Shown here one piece after another: positions 12,430 through 21,023 of a stretch of 64,000 bases of DNA. The stretch covers positions 1,280,768 through 1,344,767 of the forward strand of contig NZ_SODV01000002.1 in NCBI RefSeq assembly GCF_004366355.1, written 5' to 3'. A model generated the notes under the pieces. It was not told the DNA's origin and searched no databases. It worked only from the letters and a program-made list of their open reading frames with translations. A program made the position numbers and the translations under genes. Source of the DNA: Dinghuibacter silviterrae. GTDB taxonomy: Bacteria; Bacteroidota; Bacteroidia; Chitinophagales; Chitinophagaceae. Within the stretch, counting starts at the first letter, position 1; each line of letters begins with the position of its first letter.

Positions 12430-13443
12430 ATGCCAGAACAGCGCTTTGAAGAATACCTCTTTACCGCCCTGGACGGGTTCCCTTGCAGCTTATGGCGCTT
12501 GATCAAAGAGGAGGCTTCCCCGGAAGGACCGGTGCTGCTGGTGCACGGCGCGGGTGTCAGCGGAAACATCTTCAACCCGCCCACCCCCCGCAACATCATC
12601 GACGCCCTTTCGATCGCCGGGTTTGACGTCTGGCTGGAGAACTGGAGAGGCAGCATCGCCTGTCCGGCCAACCAGTGGGACCTCGACCAGGCTGCGGAAA
12701 ACGACCATCCCGTTGCCGTCCGCGAAGTATGCCGTCTCACGGGCGCCGCCAACCTGAAAGCCATCATCCATTGTCAGGGCTCCACCAGCTTTATGATCTC
12801 CGCGGTCAAAGGGCTCGTCCCACAGGTGACCACGGTCGTGACCAATGCCGTTTCGCTGCACCCCGTGGTGCCCTGGTTCTCCCGGGTCAAGCTGGAAGGC
12901 GCCCTGCCCCTGATCCAATCCGTTACGCCCTTTCTGAACCCCCGTTGGGGCGACGAGCCCGATGACGCCGTGGCCCGCTGGCTAAAACGCTGGGTAGACC
13001 TCACCCACTGGGAAAAAGATACGGAAGTCGGAAAGTTCGTCAGCTTTACTTACGGAAGCGGACACCCAGCTTTGTGGGAGCTCGCCAACCTGTCCCGCGT
13101 CGTGATGGATTGGATAAAGACCGAATTTGGAAAAGTGCCCGTCTCATTTTTCGAACACATCCGCAAGTGCGTGGCCGCCGGTCAGCTCGTCAGCGCCGAT
13201 GATTCCGTCCGGTATGCCGACCAGACACCCAAGACCGCGGCCCGGTTTGTGTTTCTGACCGGTAAAAAGAACCGGTGTTTCCTCCACGCCAGCCAGGAAA
13301 AAAGTTTTGAATACTTCAACCTCCGCCGGCCCGGCTTTCACCGCCTGTATGAATATGAGCGGTACAGCCACCTGGACATATTCCTGGGCGAACACGCCAG
13401 CCGGGACATCTTCCGCGATATCATCAGGGAACTCCAACAATAA
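12430..13443 (+). CDS. Alpha/beta-fold hydrolase with probable Cys nucleophile, first gene of lipid operon
   Basis: A 337-residue alpha/beta hydrolase. The oxyanion loop is VLLVHGAGVSGN (about 35-46). The nucleophile elbow reads IHCQGS, placing Cys115 where most family members have Ser. PHA synthases and the hydrolase parts found with cholesterol-oxidase-like proteins also use Cys. A C-terminal YSHLDIFLGE (about 309-318) offers the catalytic His. It heads seven co-directional genes with gaps of 17 bases or less. In some actinobacterial proteins a hydrolase of this kind is fused to a GMC oxidoreductase like the one at 16676, which suggests the two work on the same lipid substrate (inference). 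A GTG at 12385 would add 15 residues; I chose the ATG. Confidence 0.85.
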   Translation: MPEQRFEEYLFTALDGFPCSLWRLIKEEASPEGPVLLVHGAGVSGNIFNPPTPRNIIDALSIAGFDVWLENWRGSIACPANQWDLDQAAENDHPVAVREVCRLTGAANLKAIIHCQGSTSFMISAVKGLVPQVTTVVTNAVSLHPVVPWFSRVKLEGALPLIQSVTPFLNPRWGDEPDDAVARWLKRWVDLTHWEKDTEVGKFVSFTYGSGHPALWELANLSRVVMDWIKTEFGKVPVSFFEHIRKCVAAGQLVSADDSVRYADQTPKTAARFVFLTGKKNRCFLHASQEKSFEYFNLRRPGFHRLYEYERYSHLDIFLGEHASRDIFRDIIRELQQ

Positions 13444-13460
13444 AAACCCTTCAATTACCT

Positions 13461-14351
13461 ATGAGTATTCCAAATCGAATCAAAGCCTATACAGGCCGGT
13501 ACGCGCTGGTTGACGGCATCCCGTTTACGATGCCCGTGCGCACCGTCAACGCCCAGGCCTTTATGGCCGGTTTCTTTTGCGACTATCAAAAGGCTGCCGC
13601 GTTGCTGCCCGGCATCCAGCTCCATCCCCTGCGCCTCTGGAACGGAAAGGCCGTATTTATGGTCACGGTTGTCAACTATATCAACACCACCATCGGCAAA
13701 TACATCGAATACAGCCTGGCGCTGGCCGTCACCCGCGGCGCCCGTCCCGCTCCGCCCATGTTGCCCGCCGTTTTTATGAGCACCTATCATACCGGCCAGT
13801 TCATCCTCGACCTCCCCGTCAGCACCGAAATATCCGTAAAGGGAGGCAAGGGCATCTGGGGCATGCCCAAACACCGCGCCAGCCTCGACTTCAATGTAAC
13901 AGACGACCTCGTCTCCGCGCAATACGAAGACGCCGGTGAGTTTGCCTTCCGGATCGAGATCGAGCGCCCCAAGACCGCCCGGTTCCCCCTCAACATTATG
14001 GCCACCAACTACAGCCACTTCCGCAACATGCTCATGGCCTCGTACATCTATTTCAACGCCGGGGCCGGTATCCGTTTTGGTAAAAAAGCCAGGGGCAGCA
14101 TCTATATCGGGGAACACGCCCGCACCGCCTTCATGCGCGACATCGGCCTCGAAGGCGACCCCTTTTTCACTCTTTTTATGCCCGACGCCACCGGCGTGCT
14201 TGACGACCACTTCCAGTGTTGGTTCATGACCTACGACACGCCCCCCACCTCCGTTACACCCGAAGGCATGGAAAGCGTCATCTACCTCGGCCTCGGCGAA
14301 CAATGGCTGCCCGCACCCTCCATCACCGATTACGCCCGCTTTAAAATTTAG
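13461..14351 (+). CDS. Acetoacetate decarboxylase-fold protein
   Basis: A 296-residue protein of the acetoacetate decarboxylase (ADC) superfamily, which includes decarboxylases, dehydratases and aldolase-like enzymes that work through a lysine Schiff base. The stretch KGGKGIWGMPKHRASLDF (about 127-144) matches the active-site segment of the family, with Lys137 as the likely Schiff-base lysine. The region LPAVFMSTYHTGQ just upstream is also ADC-like. It starts 17 bases after the hydrolase. With hydrolase, patatin and cholesterol-oxidase-type genes around it, it may act on a keto-acid or enol produced by lipid oxidation (inference). True acetoacetate decarboxylase activity is unlikely to be the sole role given the context. 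Confidence 0.8.
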   Translation: MSIPNRIKAYTGRYALVDGIPFTMPVRTVNAQAFMAGFFCDYQKAAALLPGIQLHPLRLWNGKAVFMVTVVNYINTTIGKYIEYSLALAVTRGARPAPPMLPAVFMSTYHTGQFILDLPVSTEISVKGGKGIWGMPKHRASLDFNVTDDLVSAQYEDAGEFAFRIEIERPKTARFPLNIMATNYSHFRNMLMASYIYFNAGAGIRFGKKARGSIYIGEHARTAFMRDIGLEGDPFFTLFMPDATGVLDDHFQCWFMTYDTPPTSVTPEGMESVIYLGLGEQWLPAPSITDYARFKI

Positions 14352-14357
14352 GTACGC

Positions 14358-14816
14358 ATGAAAAATATACTCATCGGCTTTTCCTTTTTCACCGCCTCCA
14401 TATACATGGGCGTGATGTGGGCCCTTCACTTCTTCTGGTATCCCAGCTGGCAATACCTCAACTTAGGAAGCGTCCAGGACGCCTTTGTAGGCCCCACCAG
14501 CCGCGCCACGTCCTTTTTCACCATCCTCGTCCCCATCATGATGGTCTGTTGCATCATCCTGATCATCACCGAATGGAAAAAGCCCACCGCCTGGACCACC
14601 TGGGTCATGACCGCCGGCATCCTCGGCGCCACTCTCGTCGGTCAGCTCCTCATCATCCCCATCAACAAGACCGTCGCCGCCGGCGTCGCCGACCAGCAAA
14701 CCCTCACGACGCTTTTGGAGCGCTGGATGATGCTCAACAACGTCCGCATGGCCATTACCACGGTCATGTGGCTGGGCTGCCTCTTCTTTTGTTTGGTAAG
14801 GAAAAATAATCCCTGA
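14358..14816 (+). CDS. Four-helix membrane protein (DUF1772-like)
   Basis: A 152-residue integral membrane protein with four predicted helices: about 3-25, 53-72, 82-101 and 128-148. The layout, with polar HFFWYPSWQYLN after helix 1 and the LLERWMMLNNVRM segment before helix 4, resembles the DUF1772 / anthrone-oxygenase-like family, but I hold that weakly. It lies 6 bases after the ADC-fold gene and overlaps the next gene by one base (stop TGA, start ATG at 14816), so it is co-translated with its neighbours. Its role in the operon is unknown. A membrane scaffold or redox partner for the lipid-modifying enzymes is one guess. Confidence 0.75.
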   Translation: MKNILIGFSFFTASIYMGVMWALHFFWYPSWQYLNLGSVQDAFVGPTSRATSFFTILVPIMMVCCIILIITEWKKPTAWTTWVMTAGILGATLVGQLLIIPINKTVAAGVADQQTLTTLLERWMMLNNVRMAITTVMWLGCLFFCLVRKNNP

Positions 14817-15301
14817 TGTCCCCCGCACTCCGTTATATCAATATCGCCATCGGGGTTGTAACCGTCCTATCCGGCGCCGTCCAGACCGTGGCTCCCGCCT
14901 TTATCCTGCGTCTCGTCCACGCGGAGACGTCTGCGACGGCGACGCAGTCGTTTGCCATTGTGGGGTTTTTTATGGTGCTTTTTGGGGGATTGCTGATACA
15001 GAGCCTTGTCGGTGCGAGCCCTCGCGGCCCAGCCGCGCCGGGCGGCTCCGCTGCCGGCGAGCCTCTGCGGCCTTCGCCCCGCGCCGCGGCTCCCCTCAGC
15101 GGAGGCTCCTCCACGGCCTTCTTGCCCAGCGTCTTTTGGTGCGGCCTCCAAAAAGTCGGCGCCAGCGTCGCCGTGTTCGTCGGCATCTATCACGGCGTTT
15201 TCGGCGGCCTCGCCGCGGCAGTAGCCTCTTTCGACGGCCTGTCGGCCATACTCATTCTCGGCTACTGGTGGGCCGTCCGCCGGGCCCGAACCATCCCCTA
15301 A
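14816..15301 (+). CDS. Small membrane protein interrupted by a GC-rich Pro/Ala/Gly segment
   Basis: A 161-residue membrane protein of no recognised family with helices at about 5-27, 43-64, 110-127 and 130-152. Between helices 2 and 3 lies a hydrophilic insert of about 35 residues (66-101, beginning GASPRGPAAPGGSAAG) rich in Pro, Ala, Gly, Arg and Ser. It is encoded by a markedly GC-richer DNA stretch (15010-15115). Without it the protein would be a compact four-helix unit of about 125 residues, comparable to its upstream neighbour. The insert keeps the frame. It starts one base inside the previous stop codon and ends 10 bases before the patatin gene. Confidence 0.75.
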   Translation: MSPALRYINIAIGVVTVLSGAVQTVAPAFILRLVHAETSATATQSFAIVGFFMVLFGGLLIQSLVGASPRGPAAPGGSAAGEPLRPSPRAAAPLSGGSSTAFLPSVFWCGLQKVGASVAVFVGIYHGVFGGLAAAVASFDGLSAILILGYWWAVRRARTIP

Positions 15302-15311
15302 CGCGCACCTC

Positions 15312-16673
15312 ATGTCCCTCCTCGACCCCAACGCTCCTTATCGTCGCTCCCTCGTCCTGGCCGGGGGCGGCATCCGCGTGGCCTACCACGCCGGGGTGCT
15401 CCTTGCCCTGGAGGAAGCGGGGCTTACCTTCCGGCACGTCGATGGAACTTCCGGCGGGATTTTCGGTACCGCCATGCTCGCCAGCGGCATCACCCCCACC
15501 GACGCCGCCCGGCACTGGAGACGTCTCCACCTCGGCGGCTTTATGAAACCGCTGCCTTTCTGGGACTACCTCCGCTGGGGCGCCCTCCCGGCCCTCGGCA
15601 GCGCTACCGGCGTGCGTGATAAAATATTCCCGGAGCTTGGTATCTCACCCGACCGCATCCGTTCCAACGAAGACGCGGATTTTACCTTTAACGTCTGCAA
15701 CTTCACCCAAAAGGTCCTCCAGTCCATCCCAGGGCCGGAAGTAACCGTCGACTATCTCGTCGCCGGTATTTCTCTTCCGCTCTTTATGCCCGCCGTTCCC
15801 ATCGCGGGGGAGTCCTTCCTCGACGGTGTCTGGATCAAGGACGCCAACCTCACGGAGGCCTATAACCGCGGGGCCGAGGAAGTCTGGCTTGTCTGGTGCA
15901 TCGGCAATACCCCCACCTACCGTTCCGGCCTTTTCCATCAGTACGTCCACATGATCGAGATCGCCGCGAACGGCGCCCTTTTCGAGGAAATGGACCAGCT
16001 CTTCGCCCGCGCGGCCCGCGAGGGGCGGGCTTTCCGCATACACGTCCTTGCGCCCGAGTATGCGCTTCCGCTCGACCCGGACTTCGTTACCGGCAAGATC
16101 GATGCGGATACGCTGATCAATATGGGGTACGCGGAGGCGAAGCGATACCTTGCGCACCCGCGGGCCCTGACGGGCGCGCAGCGCGGCAATCCCGCGGTCT
16201 ACGCCGCGTCCACGGCCATGCGCGAACCCGGCCCCGCCCTTCACTTCCGGCAGCAGTTTCGCGGGCGGCTCGCGGGGCGGGAGCGGCAGGTCAACCTGGG
16301 CTTTTTTCTGCGGCCCACGGGGCCCCAGCTTTTTGGGTCGCTGGTGTGGGACAAAGACAAGACGGTGTCGGGTTTTGACGTCACCGCGAGCATCCCGGCG
16401 CCGGGGCAGTGTGCCCTCTCTTTTCGCTGTCTCGTAGACGGGCAGGAATACACCGTCGAGGTCCATCTGAACATGAGGGCCTTGTCGTCCGCTTCTGTAA
16501 CGCTTTGGAAGGACCGGCAGGTGGCTGGTAGCGCACAGCTTTATCAATCCTTCGGACAGCGCCTGCGCAACCGGTGGTTCGCGTATGTCATCGGGGTAGA
16601 CGGGGTGTTTGCCCGGATAAAAGCGCGGCAGCAACTAAAGGCTATTTTCACCCAAAAACCTATAGCACCATAG
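15312..16673 (+). CDS. Patatin-like phospholipase with C-terminal extension
   Basis: A 453-residue patatin-family lipid acyl hydrolase. The glycine-rich oxyanion loop is GGGIRVAYHAG (18-28), the nucleophile motif is GTSGG with Ser47, and the catalytic aspartate lies in DGVWIKD (Asp171); these form the Ser-Asp dyad. After the patatin core (about 10-285) comes an extension (about 300-440). Its pattern (HFRQQFRGRL, GSLVWD, SFRCLVDGQEYTVEVHL, VTLWKD) resembles the C-terminal extension of the GMC oxidoreductase encoded next. No signal peptide is seen, so it should act in the cytoplasm or at the inner membrane. It is placed 2 bases before the GMC gene. It may release a fatty acyl chain that other operon products process. 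Confidence 0.88.
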   Translation: MSLLDPNAPYRRSLVLAGGGIRVAYHAGVLLALEEAGLTFRHVDGTSGGIFGTAMLASGITPTDAARHWRRLHLGGFMKPLPFWDYLRWGALPALGSATGVRDKIFPELGISPDRIRSNEDADFTFNVCNFTQKVLQSIPGPEVTVDYLVAGISLPLFMPAVPIAGESFLDGVWIKDANLTEAYNRGAEEVWLVWCIGNTPTYRSGLFHQYVHMIEIAANGALFEEMDQLFARAAREGRAFRIHVLAPEYALPLDPDFVTGKIDADTLINMGYAEAKRYLAHPRALTGAQRGNPAVYAASTAMREPGPALHFRQQFRGRLAGRERQVNLGFFLRPTGPQLFGSLVWDKDKTVSGFDVTASIPAPGQCALSFRCLVDGQEYTVEVHLNMRALSSASVTLWKDRQVAGSAQLYQSFGQRLRNRWFAYVIGVDGVFARIKARQQLKAIFTQKPIAP

Positions 16674-16675
16674 AT

Positions 16676-18988
16676 ATGAAACAACTCGCCCTTCCCCTTT
16701 CCGATATCAAGCCTTTTTACGACGTCCTCATCATCGGCAGCGGCTATGGGGGTAGCATTGCCGCCTCCCGCCTGTCGAGGGCGGGTTTCCGCGTCGGTCT
16801 CCTGGAAAAAGGCAAGGAATTTCAACCGGGCCAATACCCGTCGGACCTGGCCGCCGCCGGCGAAGAGATGCAGGTGCACGCCCCGGACAAACCGGCGGAG
16901 ACGAACGGGCTGTACGAATTCCACTTCGGTGCCGACATCAGCGTGTTCAAGGGTTGCGGGCTGGGGGGCACTTCCCTCGTCAACGCCAACGTCTCCATAA
17001 AACCGGAGGAACGCGTTTTTGAGAACCCGCGCTGGCCAAAGGCCATCCGGGACGACATGGACAGCCTGAACCTGGGGTATGAGCGGGCAAGGTCTATGTT
17101 GTCTCCGTCGCCTTATCCCGAAGGGGCGGAGGGTTACCCGGAACTGGCCAAGGCACGGGCGATGAAGACCTCCGCGGGAGCGCTGGGGTTCCCGTTCAGG
17201 TATCCTGACATCAACGTGACTTTTGCAGACCATGTCAACACGGCCGGTGTTCCGCAAAGCGCGTGCACCAATTGCGGGGACTGCGTCACCGGGTGTAATC
17301 ACGGGGCCAAGAATACCTTGCTCATGAACTACCTGCCCGATGCCTACAACCACGGCGCGGAGATCTTTTGCGGGGTCGCGGTGTCGCATATTGTGCCGCC
17401 CGCCGCCGGCACGGCGGACGCCTGGACCGTCTACTACGACGTCTTCAACACCGGCCGCGACCTCTTCCACGCCCCGCCGCTCTTTACACGGGCACGCGTC
17501 GTCATCGTCTCCGCGGGCACGCTGGGCAGCACCGAAATCCTGCTCCGCAGCAGGGAAAAAGGGCTACAACTGAGCGATACCCTCGGAACACACTTTACCG
17601 GCAACGGTGACGTACTGGGTTTTTCCTACAATTGTAAGGAGCCCATCAATGGAATCGGCCTGGGCAACCACGAGGGAGAACCCGTAGGGCCTTGTATCAC
17701 GAGCCTTGTCGATATGCGGCACCGGGAGGTGCTGACCGACGGCATGACCTTTGAAGAGGGCAGTATCCCGGCGCCGATCGCCTCGGTCGTCAATACTGCA
17801 ATGCTTGGGCTGGCGGGGTTGGATCCGCGGCACGACTGGTTCCGGGAGAAGAAGCAGGAGGCCATCAGCTTGCTGGAGGGTCCGTATAAGGGCGCGACGA
17901 ACCGGATGCAGACCTATCTCGTCATGACCCACGACGACGGCAATGGGACCATGACGCTAAGGGACAACCGGCTGGCTATTTCATGGCCGGGTGTGGGGCA
18001 GCAACCCATTTTCCAAAAAGTAAACGACGCGTTGAAAACATCGACGGAGGCTTTACAGGGCGAATTTATCCGGGACGTCGTATGGAACAAATTCTTTCAC
18101 TACGAACTCGTCACCGTACATCCGCTGGGTGGTTGTTGCATGGGCGAGGACGCAGAAACCGGGGTCACGGATCACAGTGGCGGTGTTTTTAAAACGGAAA
18201 AAGATACCTGGCCCGGTTTGTATGTATTGGACGGGTCTGTCGTACCCGTACCCCTGGGTACCAATCCACTCTTTACCATTTCCGCCCTGGCCGAAAGGGC
18301 CGCGCCGATGATCGCCGCCCGGTATGGTCGCTCCATCGACTATACGGATCACCCGCCCCAGACGCCGCCGGGCGTGGAATACCCGGTGGCCGTGCAATTC
18401 ACCGAAACCATGAAGGGGTTTGTTTCCACCGGAGAAAAGACTGATTTCCAGGCGGGCTATGACAAAGGCAAGGCGGATGGCTCTGCATGTTTGTTTACGC
18501 TCACCGTCCGGACGGGTGACATATCAAAAATGGCAGCAGACCCGGCTCACCCGGGCACCATGTCCGGAACCCTGACCGCTCCAGCGCTTTCGGACCAGCC
18601 CATGACCATCAGCGGCGGTGTCTTCAACCTTTTTGAAGCCGACCCGGATCCCGCCCACCTCAAAATGAAATACCAGATGCAATTGCATACGCACGAGGGC
18701 CGGACCTTTTTCTTTTACGGCTATAAGGAGGTCGACGACGACCAGGGGCTTCGGCTTTGGAAGGACACTACCGTTTTGTACAGCACCATATATGATGGTA
18801 CCGACGCCGGCGCACCTGTCCTGGCCAAAGGCATCCTCAAGATCGCTCCCGTAGACTTCGCCCTGCAGATGACGACCATGGAGGTCGTTCACGCCTCTTC
18901 GCTGGGCGAAAAGGCCAGGGCCATGACGGCCTTCTCCCGGTTTTTTGCGGGAAAGCTCGCGGACATCTATTTCAAAAAATGGTTATGA
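16676..18988 (+). CDS. Cholesterol-oxidase-type GMC oxidoreductase
   Basis: A 770-residue FAD enzyme. The Rossmann motif is GSGYGGSIAASRL (21-33), a second FAD contact is GCGLGGTSLVNANV (93-106), and the family histidine motif is HPLGGCCMG (about 482-490), followed by the C-terminal FAD segment NPLFTISALAERAA. Family members oxidise sterols and other alcohols. Residues 197-207 carry Cys in the spacing CxxCxxCxxxC (CTNCGDCVTGC), like a 4Fe-4S site. The part after about 570 is a beta-rich extension common in long GMC proteins of this type. No signal peptide is seen, so it is not an exported cholesterol oxidase. Start: the ATG at 16676, 2 bases after patatin. It overlaps the phosphoesterase start by 4 bases. 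Confidence 0.9.
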   Translation: MKQLALPLSDIKPFYDVLIIGSGYGGSIAASRLSRAGFRVGLLEKGKEFQPGQYPSDLAAAGEEMQVHAPDKPAETNGLYEFHFGADISVFKGCGLGGTSLVNANVSIKPEERVFENPRWPKAIRDDMDSLNLGYERARSMLSPSPYPEGAEGYPELAKARAMKTSAGALGFPFRYPDINVTFADHVNTAGVPQSACTNCGDCVTGCNHGAKNTLLMNYLPDAYNHGAEIFCGVAVSHIVPPAAGTADAWTVYYDVFNTGRDLFHAPPLFTRARVVIVSAGTLGSTEILLRSREKGLQLSDTLGTHFTGNGDVLGFSYNCKEPINGIGLGNHEGEPVGPCITSLVDMRHREVLTDGMTFEEGSIPAPIASVVNTAMLGLAGLDPRHDWFREKKQEAISLLEGPYKGATNRMQTYLVMTHDDGNGTMTLRDNRLAISWPGVGQQPIFQKVNDALKTSTEALQGEFIRDVVWNKFFHYELVTVHPLGGCCMGEDAETGVTDHSGGVFKTEKDTWPGLYVLDGSVVPVPLGTNPLFTISALAERAAPMIAARYGRSIDYTDHPPQTPPGVEYPVAVQFTETMKGFVSTGEKTDFQAGYDKGKADGSACLFTLTVRTGDISKMAADPAHPGTMSGTLTAPALSDQPMTISGGVFNLFEADPDPAHLKMKYQMQLHTHEGRTFFFYGYKEVDDDQGLRLWKDTTVLYSTIYDGTDAGAPVLAKGILKIAPVDFALQMTTMEVVHASSLGEKARAMTAFSRFFAGKLADIYFKKWL

Positions 18989-20220
18989 GCAAGCGGGATC
19001 AATCAGACTATCTCCACCTGGGCCGGACCGTTATTGAAAACCACTTCAGGACCGAGCGAAAAAAGTCAAAGGGCGCCCCGGTGCTGAACCAGATCACTGC
19101 TTTTATCGCGCGTCATTTCTGGAGCTGGATCTATTACTACCTGGACAGCCGTTTTGGCAAACCCCATCCGTATCCCACCTATCCTGAAACGGGCGACCGG
19201 GGCGTGTATCCCTTACCCGGGCGCAACGGCGTCCGCCTGGCTGTTTGCGCCGACTGGGGCACGAATACGGCCGAGTCCCGCCAGATCGCCGACCGGATGC
19301 GTTCCCACGAACCCGACTACACCATCCACTTAGGCGACACCTATTATGTGGGGGAACCAAAAGAAATTGCCGCCAATTTCCTCGATCCCGGTTCGCCCTG
19401 GTACCGCGGGCCGCTGGGAAGTTTTGCCGTGCTGGGGAATCATGAGATGTATGCGAAAGGGAGTGCGTTTTTTGAGAACCTGCTGCCGACGATGGGACCC
19501 GCCGCCGCGCCCGGCCGGGCGCTCCTCGGCCAGCGCGCCGGCTACTTCTGCCTCGAAAACGCCCACTGGCGCCTCCTGGGCCTCGACACCGGCTATCACT
19601 CGATCGGCAAACCGATCCTGGAGCTGTTGCCCCGGTTCCAGCCCGACTGCCGCCTGGACGATACCCTTGTGCAGTGGCTAAAGAATGTCGTGCGGGTAGG
19701 GGAGGATCAAAGGGGACTTGTGCTGATGACCCACCACCAGTATATCAGTGCATTTAACGAACCCGAATACACGGTACCGGCGCGCCAGCTTGCCGAACTC
19801 ATCGGGGAAGACCGTCCGGTGATCTGGATATGGGGGCACGAGCACCGGTTTTCGTTGTATGAAAAGTTCTCGATGAAAAACGGCCTCACAGCTTATGGCC
19901 GTTGTATCGGTCATGGGGGTATGCCGATCGAAATAAAGACCGATGCGCGCAAGCCCGGTAATAAAGGCTACGATCGCCTGGTCATGGTAGACGACCGGGT
20001 TCGCCCGGGGGTGGGGGCGCCAAAGGGAGATCCGCTGGGATGGAATGGCTACGCGGTGTTGACCGTCAACGGTCCGGAACTGACGATTGAATATTGCGAT
20101 GCGGAACGATCGTTGTTCAGTGAGACATGGACGAGCGAGATGCGCGGTACCGTCACGGTCGACCCGCATTGTCCGTTAAAACCGGTGTCGGGCAAACAGT
20201 GGCAGGACGCGGTGCGTTAG
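18985..20220 (+). CDS. Calcineurin-like metallophosphoesterase
   Basis: A 411-residue metallophosphoesterase. All metal-binding blocks are visible: CADWGTN (about 86-92), HLGDTYY (about 114-120), LGNHEMY (about 150-156), MTHHQY (about 248-253) and WGHEHRF (about 286-292). There is no signal peptide, so it is likely cytosolic or membrane-associated through its basic N-terminus. The ATG at 18985 overlaps the GMC stop as ATGA; an ATG two codons earlier is also possible. It is the last gene of the seven-gene operon, and its stop overlaps that of the converging SnoaL-VOC gene by four bases. It may remove a phosphate from a phospholipid or isoprenoid intermediate (inference from context). Confidence 0.88.
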   Translation: MSKRDQSDYLHLGRTVIENHFRTERKKSKGAPVLNQITAFIARHFWSWIYYYLDSRFGKPHPYPTYPETGDRGVYPLPGRNGVRLAVCADWGTNTAESRQIADRMRSHEPDYTIHLGDTYYVGEPKEIAANFLDPGSPWYRGPLGSFAVLGNHEMYAKGSAFFENLLPTMGPAAAPGRALLGQRAGYFCLENAHWRLLGLDTGYHSIGKPILELLPRFQPDCRLDDTLVQWLKNVVRVGEDQRGLVLMTHHQYISAFNEPEYTVPARQLAELIGEDRPVIWIWGHEHRFSLYEKFSMKNGLTAYGRCIGHGGMPIEIKTDARKPGNKGYDRLVMVDDRVRPGVGAPKGDPLGWNGYAVLTVNGPELTIEYCDAERSLFSETWTSEMRGTVTVDPHCPLKPVSGKQWQDAVR

Positions 20221-21023
20221 CGCGTCACTGCCCCCAGTATCTTCGAATACGCCTCATCATCCGATTCCCAGAGTTCGATCTTGTTGTTTTCCGGATCGAG
20301 GATGTGGACGAATTTCCCATAAGGATAGGCCTCGATCTCGTCCAGCACGACGACCCCTTCCTCGCGCAATTGGGCGACGAGGGATTCGATGTGGACCACG
20401 CGATAATTAAACATAAAATCCTTGTCCGAGGGGGCAAAGTAATTGGTATCCGGGGGGAAGGGGCTCCAGGCGGTAAAGCCTTTCCGGCGACCGTCCCATT
20501 GTCTCCAGGCAAAACTTGTCCCGTACGCGTCGGTGCGGAGCCCGAGGTGACGGGTGTACCATTCCTTTAGTTTTTCCGGTTCCCGGCACTTGAAAAAGAC
20601 ACCCCCGATGGAGGTAACCCGGGCGCCATCGGGCGAAACTGCCGCGTGCCGGTCAATGATGTCGAATGGGATTTTTGTATCCGCGTATACTTGCCAATGG
20701 CTGATCTGGTCTCCCAGTATCTGGGCCTTCCAGGCGGCCGGGATCCTCCAATGGTTTTCCCCCGGGATACCCAGGTATGTCCCCATCGCAAAACCGGTGG
20801 CCAGGACGGTATGGGCGGTTTCCAGCGCGTCCGTGAGCTCGATGGCATAGTCCGGGAACCAATGAAAGTATTTGATCCACCCGTCCCTGGCCGCGTCTGC
20901 CCCGTTCACCCGGTTGCCGATGGCGTCTAAGAAAACGTGGTCCGGGGTCATGAGCGAATGCAACCGTTCGGCGTCACGGGCGTTGATGGCCGTGACAAAA
21001 TCGAAAAAAGCTACTGTCGACAT
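20217..21023 (-). CDS. SnoaL-like / VOC (glyoxalase-fold) fusion protein
   Basis: A 268-residue fusion of two small-molecule folds. Residues about 1-125 are a SnoaL/NTF2-like domain (FVTAINARDAERLHSLMTPD, then WIKYFHWFPDYAIEL). Residues about 140-260 are a VOC domain (IGGVFFKCREPEKLKEWYTR, then FVHILDPENNKIELWE). The latter holds the C-terminal Glu typical of the metal site. SnoaL-like proteins act on polyketides, steroids or serve in binding; VOC proteins are glyoxalases, dioxygenases or resistance proteins. The substrate cannot be read. It converges on the lipid operon, with stop codons overlapping at 20217-20220, and diverges from the esterase gene at 21097. The two domains often occur as separate proteins. 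Confidence 0.82.
   Translation of the reverse strand: MSTVAFFDFVTAINARDAERLHSLMTPDHVFLDAIGNRVNGADAARDGWIKYFHWFPDYAIELTDALETAHTVLATGFAMGTYLGIPGENHWRIPAAWKAQILGDQISHWQVYADTKIPFDIIDRHAAVSPDGARVTSIGGVFFKCREPEKLKEWYTRHLGLRTDAYGTSFAWRQWDGRRKGFTAWSPFPPDTNYFAPSDKDFMFNYRVVHIESLVAQLREEGVVVLDEIEAYPYGKFVHILDPENNKIELWESDDEAYSKILGAVTR

Follow-up and report, generated by a model that had tools for sequence, protein, structure and literature searches.

Organization of the seven-gene operon

The window, a 64,000-nucleotide stretch of Dinghuibacter silviterrae DNA, contains a seven-gene operon transcribed from the plus strand (12430–20220) that is real and not peculiar to this genome. The coordinates rest on chosen start codons for the seven open reading frames (ORFs), which encode an acid-lipase-fold alpha/beta hydrolase (ABH; 12430–13443; 337 aa), an acetoacetate-decarboxylase-fold protein (ADC; 13461–14351; 296 aa), two membrane proteins (MP1; 14358–14816; 152 aa, and MP2; 14816–15301; 161 aa), a patatin-like phospholipase (PAT; 15312–16673; 453 aa), a GMC flavoprotein (GMC; 16676–18988; 770 aa), and a calcineurin-like metallophosphoesterase (MPE; 18979–20220; 413 aa). 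GMC ends in a predicted accessory domain (18353–18985, plus strand; residues ~564–767), described below.

The distances between successive genes, from ABH to MPE, are 17, 6, −1, 10, 2, and −10 bases, so the ORF coordinates bear out an earlier note on this DNA that had described seven plus-strand genes with gaps of 17 bases or less. The same note counted three overlapping genes; there are two overlapping junctions, and a third same-strand overlap arises only if GMC starts at the GTG codon at 16574. At its end, MPE also overlaps by 4 bases a convergent minus-strand gene (20217–21023) coding for a SnoaL-like plus glyoxalase-domain protein, which among the 82 mapped loci has a partial match in L047 only. 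Within the stretch, sigma-70-like sites (2 found, 2.8 expected) and terminator-like sites (11 found, 9.2 expected) are at chance level, and the motif TAnnTTTG is not present.

None of the seven proteins is named by NCBIfam above family cut-offs. Pfam scores exceed the cut-offs for GMC (GMC_oxred_N, 55.1 bits against 23; GMC_oxred_C, 48.6 against 24.6), PAT (PF01734, 61.7 against 27.7), ADC (PF06314, 49.6 against 29.8), and MPE (Metallophos PF00149, 49.6 against 21.5, with the metal-binding motifs ADWG, GDTYY, GNHE, and GHEH intact). MP1 lies exactly at the Anthrone_oxy threshold (PF08592, 27.3 bits for a cut-off of 27.3), ABH has a weak Abhydrolase_1 match below cut-off (20.8 against 25.8), and MP2 itself has no match, DUF4345 being reached weakly by two of 14 alignment members (best E 0.0036). 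A hydropathy scan predicts four transmembrane (TM) segments in each of MP1 and MP2 and one weak internal segment in PAT (residues 144–162), and reveals no TM or signal-like segment in ABH, ADC, GMC, or MPE, in keeping with the earlier view that the enzymes lack signal peptides.

Conservation of the cluster and fusions among its genes

Scanning the GMC protein against 84,980 species genomes revealed 114 stretches encoding a relative, of which the best 80 were kept. Locus counts cover 40 non-Pseudomonas and 54 Pseudomonas GMC loci, leaving out L015 and L109 (same genomes as L022 and L017, respectively), L115, and the short loci L001–L014 and L097–L103; L100 was dropped from one alignment, in which it had been read on the wrong strand. 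The full set (ABH, ADC, MP1, MP2, PAT, and GMC) is present in 20 of the 40 non-Pseudomonas loci, which is a lower bound as several of these loci are cut by contig ends, and the order ABH-ADC-MP1-MP2-PAT is the same in all 20. GMC follows PAT in 17 and precedes ABH in three (L104, L105, L116), and MPE is present in all except L018 and L105 (18/20). By record title, with family names that are in part presumed, the full-set loci belong to the Chitinophagaceae, Sphingobacteriaceae, Prolixibacteraceae, and Cyclobacteriaceae, an Arthrobacter megaplasmid, and a distant Bacteroidota genome (L105). The megaplasmid, from Arthrobacter sp. StoSoilB13 (L116, 4138–13262; the record is unannotated), carries all seven families on one strand, packed tightly with some overlapping ORFs. 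Co-occurrence is therefore not limited to this genome, the outcome the earlier note had set as refuting it; colinear sets are found both in Bacteroidota and on one Actinomycetota plasmid. The operon reflects more than chance, because its order and content are kept across two phyla while the 6.5 Mb host genome holds few members of the families concerned (14 Metallophos matches, five patatin genes, one of them below cut-off, and three GMC_oxred_C matches).

Occurrence is nonetheless patchy. GMC orthologues with more than 50% identity are found, among 59 relatives, in the window genome and two others, and none was found in the one same-genus genome searched (91% complete). Of 395 phylum genomes, four have an ADC orthologue and six have GMC at E ≤1e-100; among 248 order genomes, three have an ADC orthologue. 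Six different genomes contain ADC orthologues with the cluster beside each (the window, L109, L104, L105, L015, and G593, in which the ADC coordinates are those of L023). Seventeen plasmid records match GMC at 1e-40, eight of them over at least 80% of its length, and a full-length ADC is present in one of six matching plasmid records. The patchy occurrence and the plasmid-borne copies fit horizontal spread of a conserved cluster that is widely shared across bacteria. No description of the cluster was found in the open-access literature searched; subscription journals lay mostly outside the search, and it may be in print elsewhere.

GMC and ABH form a single protein in relatives from Pseudomonas, Chloroflexi, Leptospira, Rhizobium, Azospirillum, Variovorax, Bernardetia, and Persicobacter, and a 1,908 aa Ensifer protein (L118, 7821–13547) combines GMC, ABH, and a PhoD-type phosphatase. 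The C-terminal GMC barrel is portable between GMC and patatin, as it is also found on the patatin of L104 (E 1e-51) and is carried by the patatin of L105, where the GMC ORF (601 aa) lacks it. Downstream of its GMC-ABH fusion, the Chloroflexi locus L087 has a patatin-family gene (a query finding itself in the locus matching) and then a second gene clustering with that patatin. The colinear sets, the two types of fusion, and the barrel on patatin in two genomes support the earlier suggestion that the genes, at the least the hydrolase and GMC, act together; the fusions found are not actinobacterial as had been supposed, no dedicated survey of actinobacterial genomes having been made. By sequence, the core of the system is GMC with a cysteine-type acid-lipase-fold ABH, most often accompanied by a metallophosphoesterase; in Bacteroidota and on one Actinomycetota plasmid, ADC, two 4-TM proteins, and patatin are added to it.

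A phosphoesterase gene sharing the strand of GMC and no more than 9 kb away from it is found in 32 of the 40 non-Pseudomonas loci and in 53 of the 54 Pseudomonas loci, the single Pseudomonas miss being at a contig end. It is mostly directly next to GMC in Bacteroidota and ~3.5 kb downstream in Pseudomonas, beyond the ABH part and a di-heme gene. These phosphoesterases represent four or more subfamilies that show no BLAST similarity to one another at 1e-4; relatives of the window type are present in two Mucilaginibacter loci (L020, L021) and in L107, and the PhoD part of L118 is weakly linked to a 578-aa type (E 0.001 over ~40 residues). PDB sequence searches with two MPE alignments gave no match.

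Other genes are found near relatives of GMC. Adenylate/guanylate cyclase genes are near GMC-ABH in three unrelated genomes (L047, 14892–16916; L111, 14659–17822; L118, 3465–7475), and shorter GMC relatives (~560 aa, without the barrel) adjoin a D-arabinono-1,4-lactone-oxidase-type flavoprotein in L107 (7679–10946) and L108 (286–3640). In L030 (7098–16432) and L016, GMC relatives lie in a different cluster together with a DyP-like peroxidase, catalase-like proteins, and a 424–425-aa protein without a Pfam match.

Sequence and structural features of the proteins

GMC contains a CX2CX2CX3C motif (Cys197, Cys200, Cys203, and Cys207) in which all but Cys200 (91/93) are invariant in 93 sequences, as are the active-site residues His482 and Asn530. 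Class I cholesterol oxidases (Streptomyces, Brevibacterium) share the GMC fold, the FAD motif, and the aligned active-site His and Asn, with the HPLGG and GxNP motifs aligning, but they are ~500-residue chains without the C-terminal barrel and without the cysteine cluster in the printed alignments, and the window GMC scores 170.9 bits with the NCBIfam cholesterol oxidase family NF058674 against a cut-off of 850. The active-site residues of these oxidases are presumably His447, Asn485, and Glu361, and the position of the last falls in an unaligned gap between two aligned parts.

The spacing of Cys197, Cys203, and Cys207 (C-x5-C-x3-C) is that of the 3Fe-4S ligands Cys212, Cys218, and Cys222 of the B. 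cepacia FAD-dependent glucose dehydrogenase (FAD-GDH; PMC6719666), a likeness of spacing without a direct alignment to the FAD-GDH sequence. In FAD-GDH and related GMC dehydrogenase complexes these ligands appear to occupy an equivalent place in the fold; however, FAD-GDH works with hitchhiker (gamma) and cytochrome subunits, neither of which is in the window operon, and Cys200 is extra in the window GMC. The two other GMCs of the host genome have C-x5-C-x3-C in the same alignment columns. One of them (L119, 2253–4552) adjoins a 202-aa protein whose start is twin-arginine-like, an arrangement reminiscent of a gluconate/FAD-dehydrogenase pair. The window GMC, described earlier as cholesterol-oxidase-type, thus resembles FAD-dependent dehydrogenases in its Fe-S cysteine spacing, which the aligned cholesterol oxidases do not have; it probably carries an Fe-S cluster and probably functions as a dehydrogenase that transfers electrons, not as a cholesterol oxidase.

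When folded separately, the C-terminal stretch of GMC (~205 residues) is modelled by AlphaFold2 as eight long strands forming a barrel, with a predicted local distance difference test (pLDDT) score of 91.3. No relative was found by Foldseek in the PDB at E ≤0.001, and no named fold is claimed because the best VIA Z score of 9.7 is common to unrelated small barrels. In 53 of the 54 Pseudomonas loci a di-heme gene (RoxA-like/di-heme peroxidase family) lies 3′ of GMC-ABH; the one product examined (L048) combines four TM segments with two CxxCH motifs.

ABH has a cysteine in place of the usual serine nucleophile. Cys115 and Asn281 are present in 83 of 83 sequences and His314 in 82 (most of these being from Pseudomonas), and all three are invariant in 21 diverse sequences. 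A profile alignment places HCQG of ABH on HSQG of gastric and lysosomal acid lipases, such that Cys115 falls on the nucleophile serine. The AlphaFold2 model (pLDDT 92.9) is nearest by VIA to lysosomal acid lipase (Z 33.1, root mean square deviation 2.6, 313 residues aligned), then to gastric lipases (Z 31.8–32.3) and to PhaC (Z 26.1). The likeness to acid lipases extends over the whole fold (307–313 residues), but their serine is replaced and ABH has an asparagine at the presumed acid position; Asn281 presumably stands in place of the catalytic Asp, to judge from the local pattern, the acid region lying outside the printed alignment. The polyhydroxyalkanoate (PHA) synthase PhaC shares both the alpha/beta hydrolase fold and a cysteine nucleophile, but its PhaC_N domain (PF07167) is not in ABH, for which only Abhydrolase_1 is listed at E ≤0.1. 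Database records name this type of protein simply 'alpha/beta fold hydrolase'. The earlier interpretation does not hold as phrased, the nucleophile position being occupied by Cys rather than Ser. ABH is probably an acyltransferase or a thioesterase.

In ADC, Lys137 and Glu83 are invariant in 10 of 10 sequences and shared with two annotated ADC-family proteins. The presence of the Schiff-base lysine, Lys137, agrees with the ADC-type Schiff-base step proposed earlier. Family score and conserved residues both link ADC to the acetoacetate decarboxylase superfamily (PF06314), from which it differs in having His138 after the lysine; no PDB relative was found by sequence. The PAT catalytic dyad is conserved, with Ser47 in 20 of 21 sequences (one gap) and Asp171 in all 21. 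A resemblance of the window patatin C-terminus to the GMC barrel, suspected by eye, was ruled out (hhalign probability 0.4%) and holds only for the patatins of L104 and L105.

MP1 has homologues in place at other loci, and MP2 has an extra Pro/Ala/Gly-rich loop of ~32 aa that is not in its 13 aligned relatives. A further small membrane protein (DUF4345), the third, is encoded between MP2 and PAT (e.g. L017, 6431–6883) at 12 of the 40 non-Pseudomonas loci but not in the window. Comparison of shallow alignments revealed no homology among MP1, MP2, the proteins of DUF4345, and the 4-TM portion of the Pseudomonas di-heme protein (all hhalign probabilities <1%).

Proposed function and alternative readings

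The preferred reading, on which confidence is evenly divided, is that the cluster serves the intracellular oxidation of a lipid-type alcohol at the membrane, with GMC working as a dehydrogenase and not as an oxidase that uses O2. Removal of acyl and phosphate groups by the patatin and the phosphoesterase would release the substrate and expose an alcohol, from which GMC would move a hydride to FAD and pass electrons via the Fe-S cluster to a membrane acceptor; this is probably the neighbouring membrane-anchored di-heme protein in Pseudomonas, and possibly MP1/MP2 in Bacteroidota. The Cys115/His314 pair of ABH may handle the acyl group through a thioester, as a transferase or thioesterase, and the ADC lysine could act on the GMC-made carbonyl by decarboxylation or aldol-type chemistry. 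Of the earlier interpretation, the idea that the genes work together stands, and the descriptions of the hydrolase and of a cholesterol-oxidase-type GMC do not hold as phrased; the route of acyl and phosphate removal is kept as a proposal.

Several points weigh against oxidation of a lipid-type alcohol by an Fe-S dehydrogenase. The substrate, product, and electron acceptor are all hypothetical, the Fe-S site is predicted from cysteine spacing alone, and electron transfer to MP1/MP2 is a guess. Cys200 is missing in two actinobacterial GMCs, sequence comparison places cholesterol oxidases, which use O2, closest among the solved GMCs, a Pfam scan reveals neither a hitchhiker subunit nor a cytochrome in the seven-gene operon, and hhalign finds no homology of MP1 or MP2 to the 4-TM part of the Pseudomonas di-heme protein. 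No MPE was found in eight of the 40 non-Pseudomonas loci, including four GMC-ABH fusion loci (L087, L110, L111, L112), and six of the 32 non-Pseudomonas matches are queries finding themselves, identified by Pfam scores above cut-off (L047, L117, L118), by 32–35% identity to the 578-aa type (L113, L116), or by motifs alone (L114). The 578-aa type has no Pfam match in L019 and one member above cut-off (L030), being otherwise recognized by similarity and motifs.

Gene content was used to test substrates in seven genomes, five with the full set (G000, G012, G175, G318, G232) and two with GMC only or a GMC-ABH fusion (G027, G145). The squalene-hopene cyclase family is present in one of the seven (G145) and not in the window genome, the PHA synthase N-domain (PhaC_N) in none, and the ring-cleavage dioxygenase family TIGR03213, presumably linked to steroid rings, is above cut-off in none and weak in three. 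The organisms' own hopanoids, PHA, and the standard steroid-ring pathway are made less likely by these tests. They bear on a sterol or steryl-ester pathway, in which ABH would free a sterol from its ester, GMC would oxidise the 3-hydroxyl, and ADC would decarboxylate a 4-carboxy-3-keto sterol. Decarboxylation of 3-keto-4-carboxylates is known sterol chemistry, the structure nearest to ABH is a lysosomal acid lipase/cholesteryl ester hydrolase, and cholesterol oxidases are the nearest solved GMCs; but the low cholesterol-oxidase score, the Cys for Ser substitution in ABH, the Fe-S-type cysteines not seen in the printed cholesterol-oxidase alignments, and the scarcity of the cyclase and dioxygenase among the GMC-bearing genomes leave this pathway unlikely, and the sterol link suggested earlier is not borne out.

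A biosynthetic cluster building a special lipid (a hydroxy- or keto-lipid or a pigment-like compound), with MP1 acting like an anthrone oxygenase, is a possible if doubtful alternative that would suit the patchy distribution, the plasmid-borne copies, the placement of MP1 in the Anthrone_oxy family, and the acyltransferase-like cysteine of ABH. However, Pfam finds no polyketide synthase, acyl carrier protein, or ligase in 56 selected neighbour and partner proteins (which include one CoA-transferase, one short-chain dehydrogenase, and one Polyketide_cyc2-domain protein), the patatin and phosphoesterase are hydrolases, and MP1 is only at the family threshold. Peroxide or oxylipin handling, with GMC making H2O2 or meeting lipid hydroperoxides used by neighbouring haem enzymes, draws on the genes for DyP-like and catalase-like proteins that adjoin GMC in L016 and L030 and on the di-heme peroxidase-family protein near GMC-ABH in Pseudomonas. 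It is very unlikely, as Pfam detects no haem enzyme family among the seven window genes, the 20 full-set loci have no relative of the three haem proteins (DyP-like, catalase-like, di-heme), and the Fe-S-type motif in GMC argues for a dehydrogenase. Both the MPE and the patatin family have several members in the host genome, as chance packing of unrelated genes would allow, but cross-phylum colinearity, fusions, and domain swapping contradict this and reduce its probability almost to nothing.

A more novel and quite improbable proposal is that GMC and the cysteine ABH, fused in many bacteria, constitute a tandem machine turning a lipid alcohol into an acyl thioester. The phosphoesterase would supply the alcohol, the Fe-S GMC would convert it to an aldehyde that forms a thiohemiacetal with Cys115, and a second oxidation would give a thioester from which the acyl group is passed on. 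If true, this would be a route from an alcohol to an activated acyl group independent of both NAD and CoA.

The cluster defines a testable, unnamed enzyme module. Its full set is found in Bacteroidota and on an Actinomycetota plasmid, and its GMC-ABH core extends to Pseudomonadota, Spirochaetota, and Chloroflexota. The module ties a GMC bearing a cysteine motif of the Fe-S type to an acid-lipase-fold enzyme of the cysteine type, a pairing that would be new for lipid chemistry. Correct naming would alter annotations in many Pseudomonas, in which phosphoesterase and di-heme neighbours accompany the fused core in 53 of the 54 loci.

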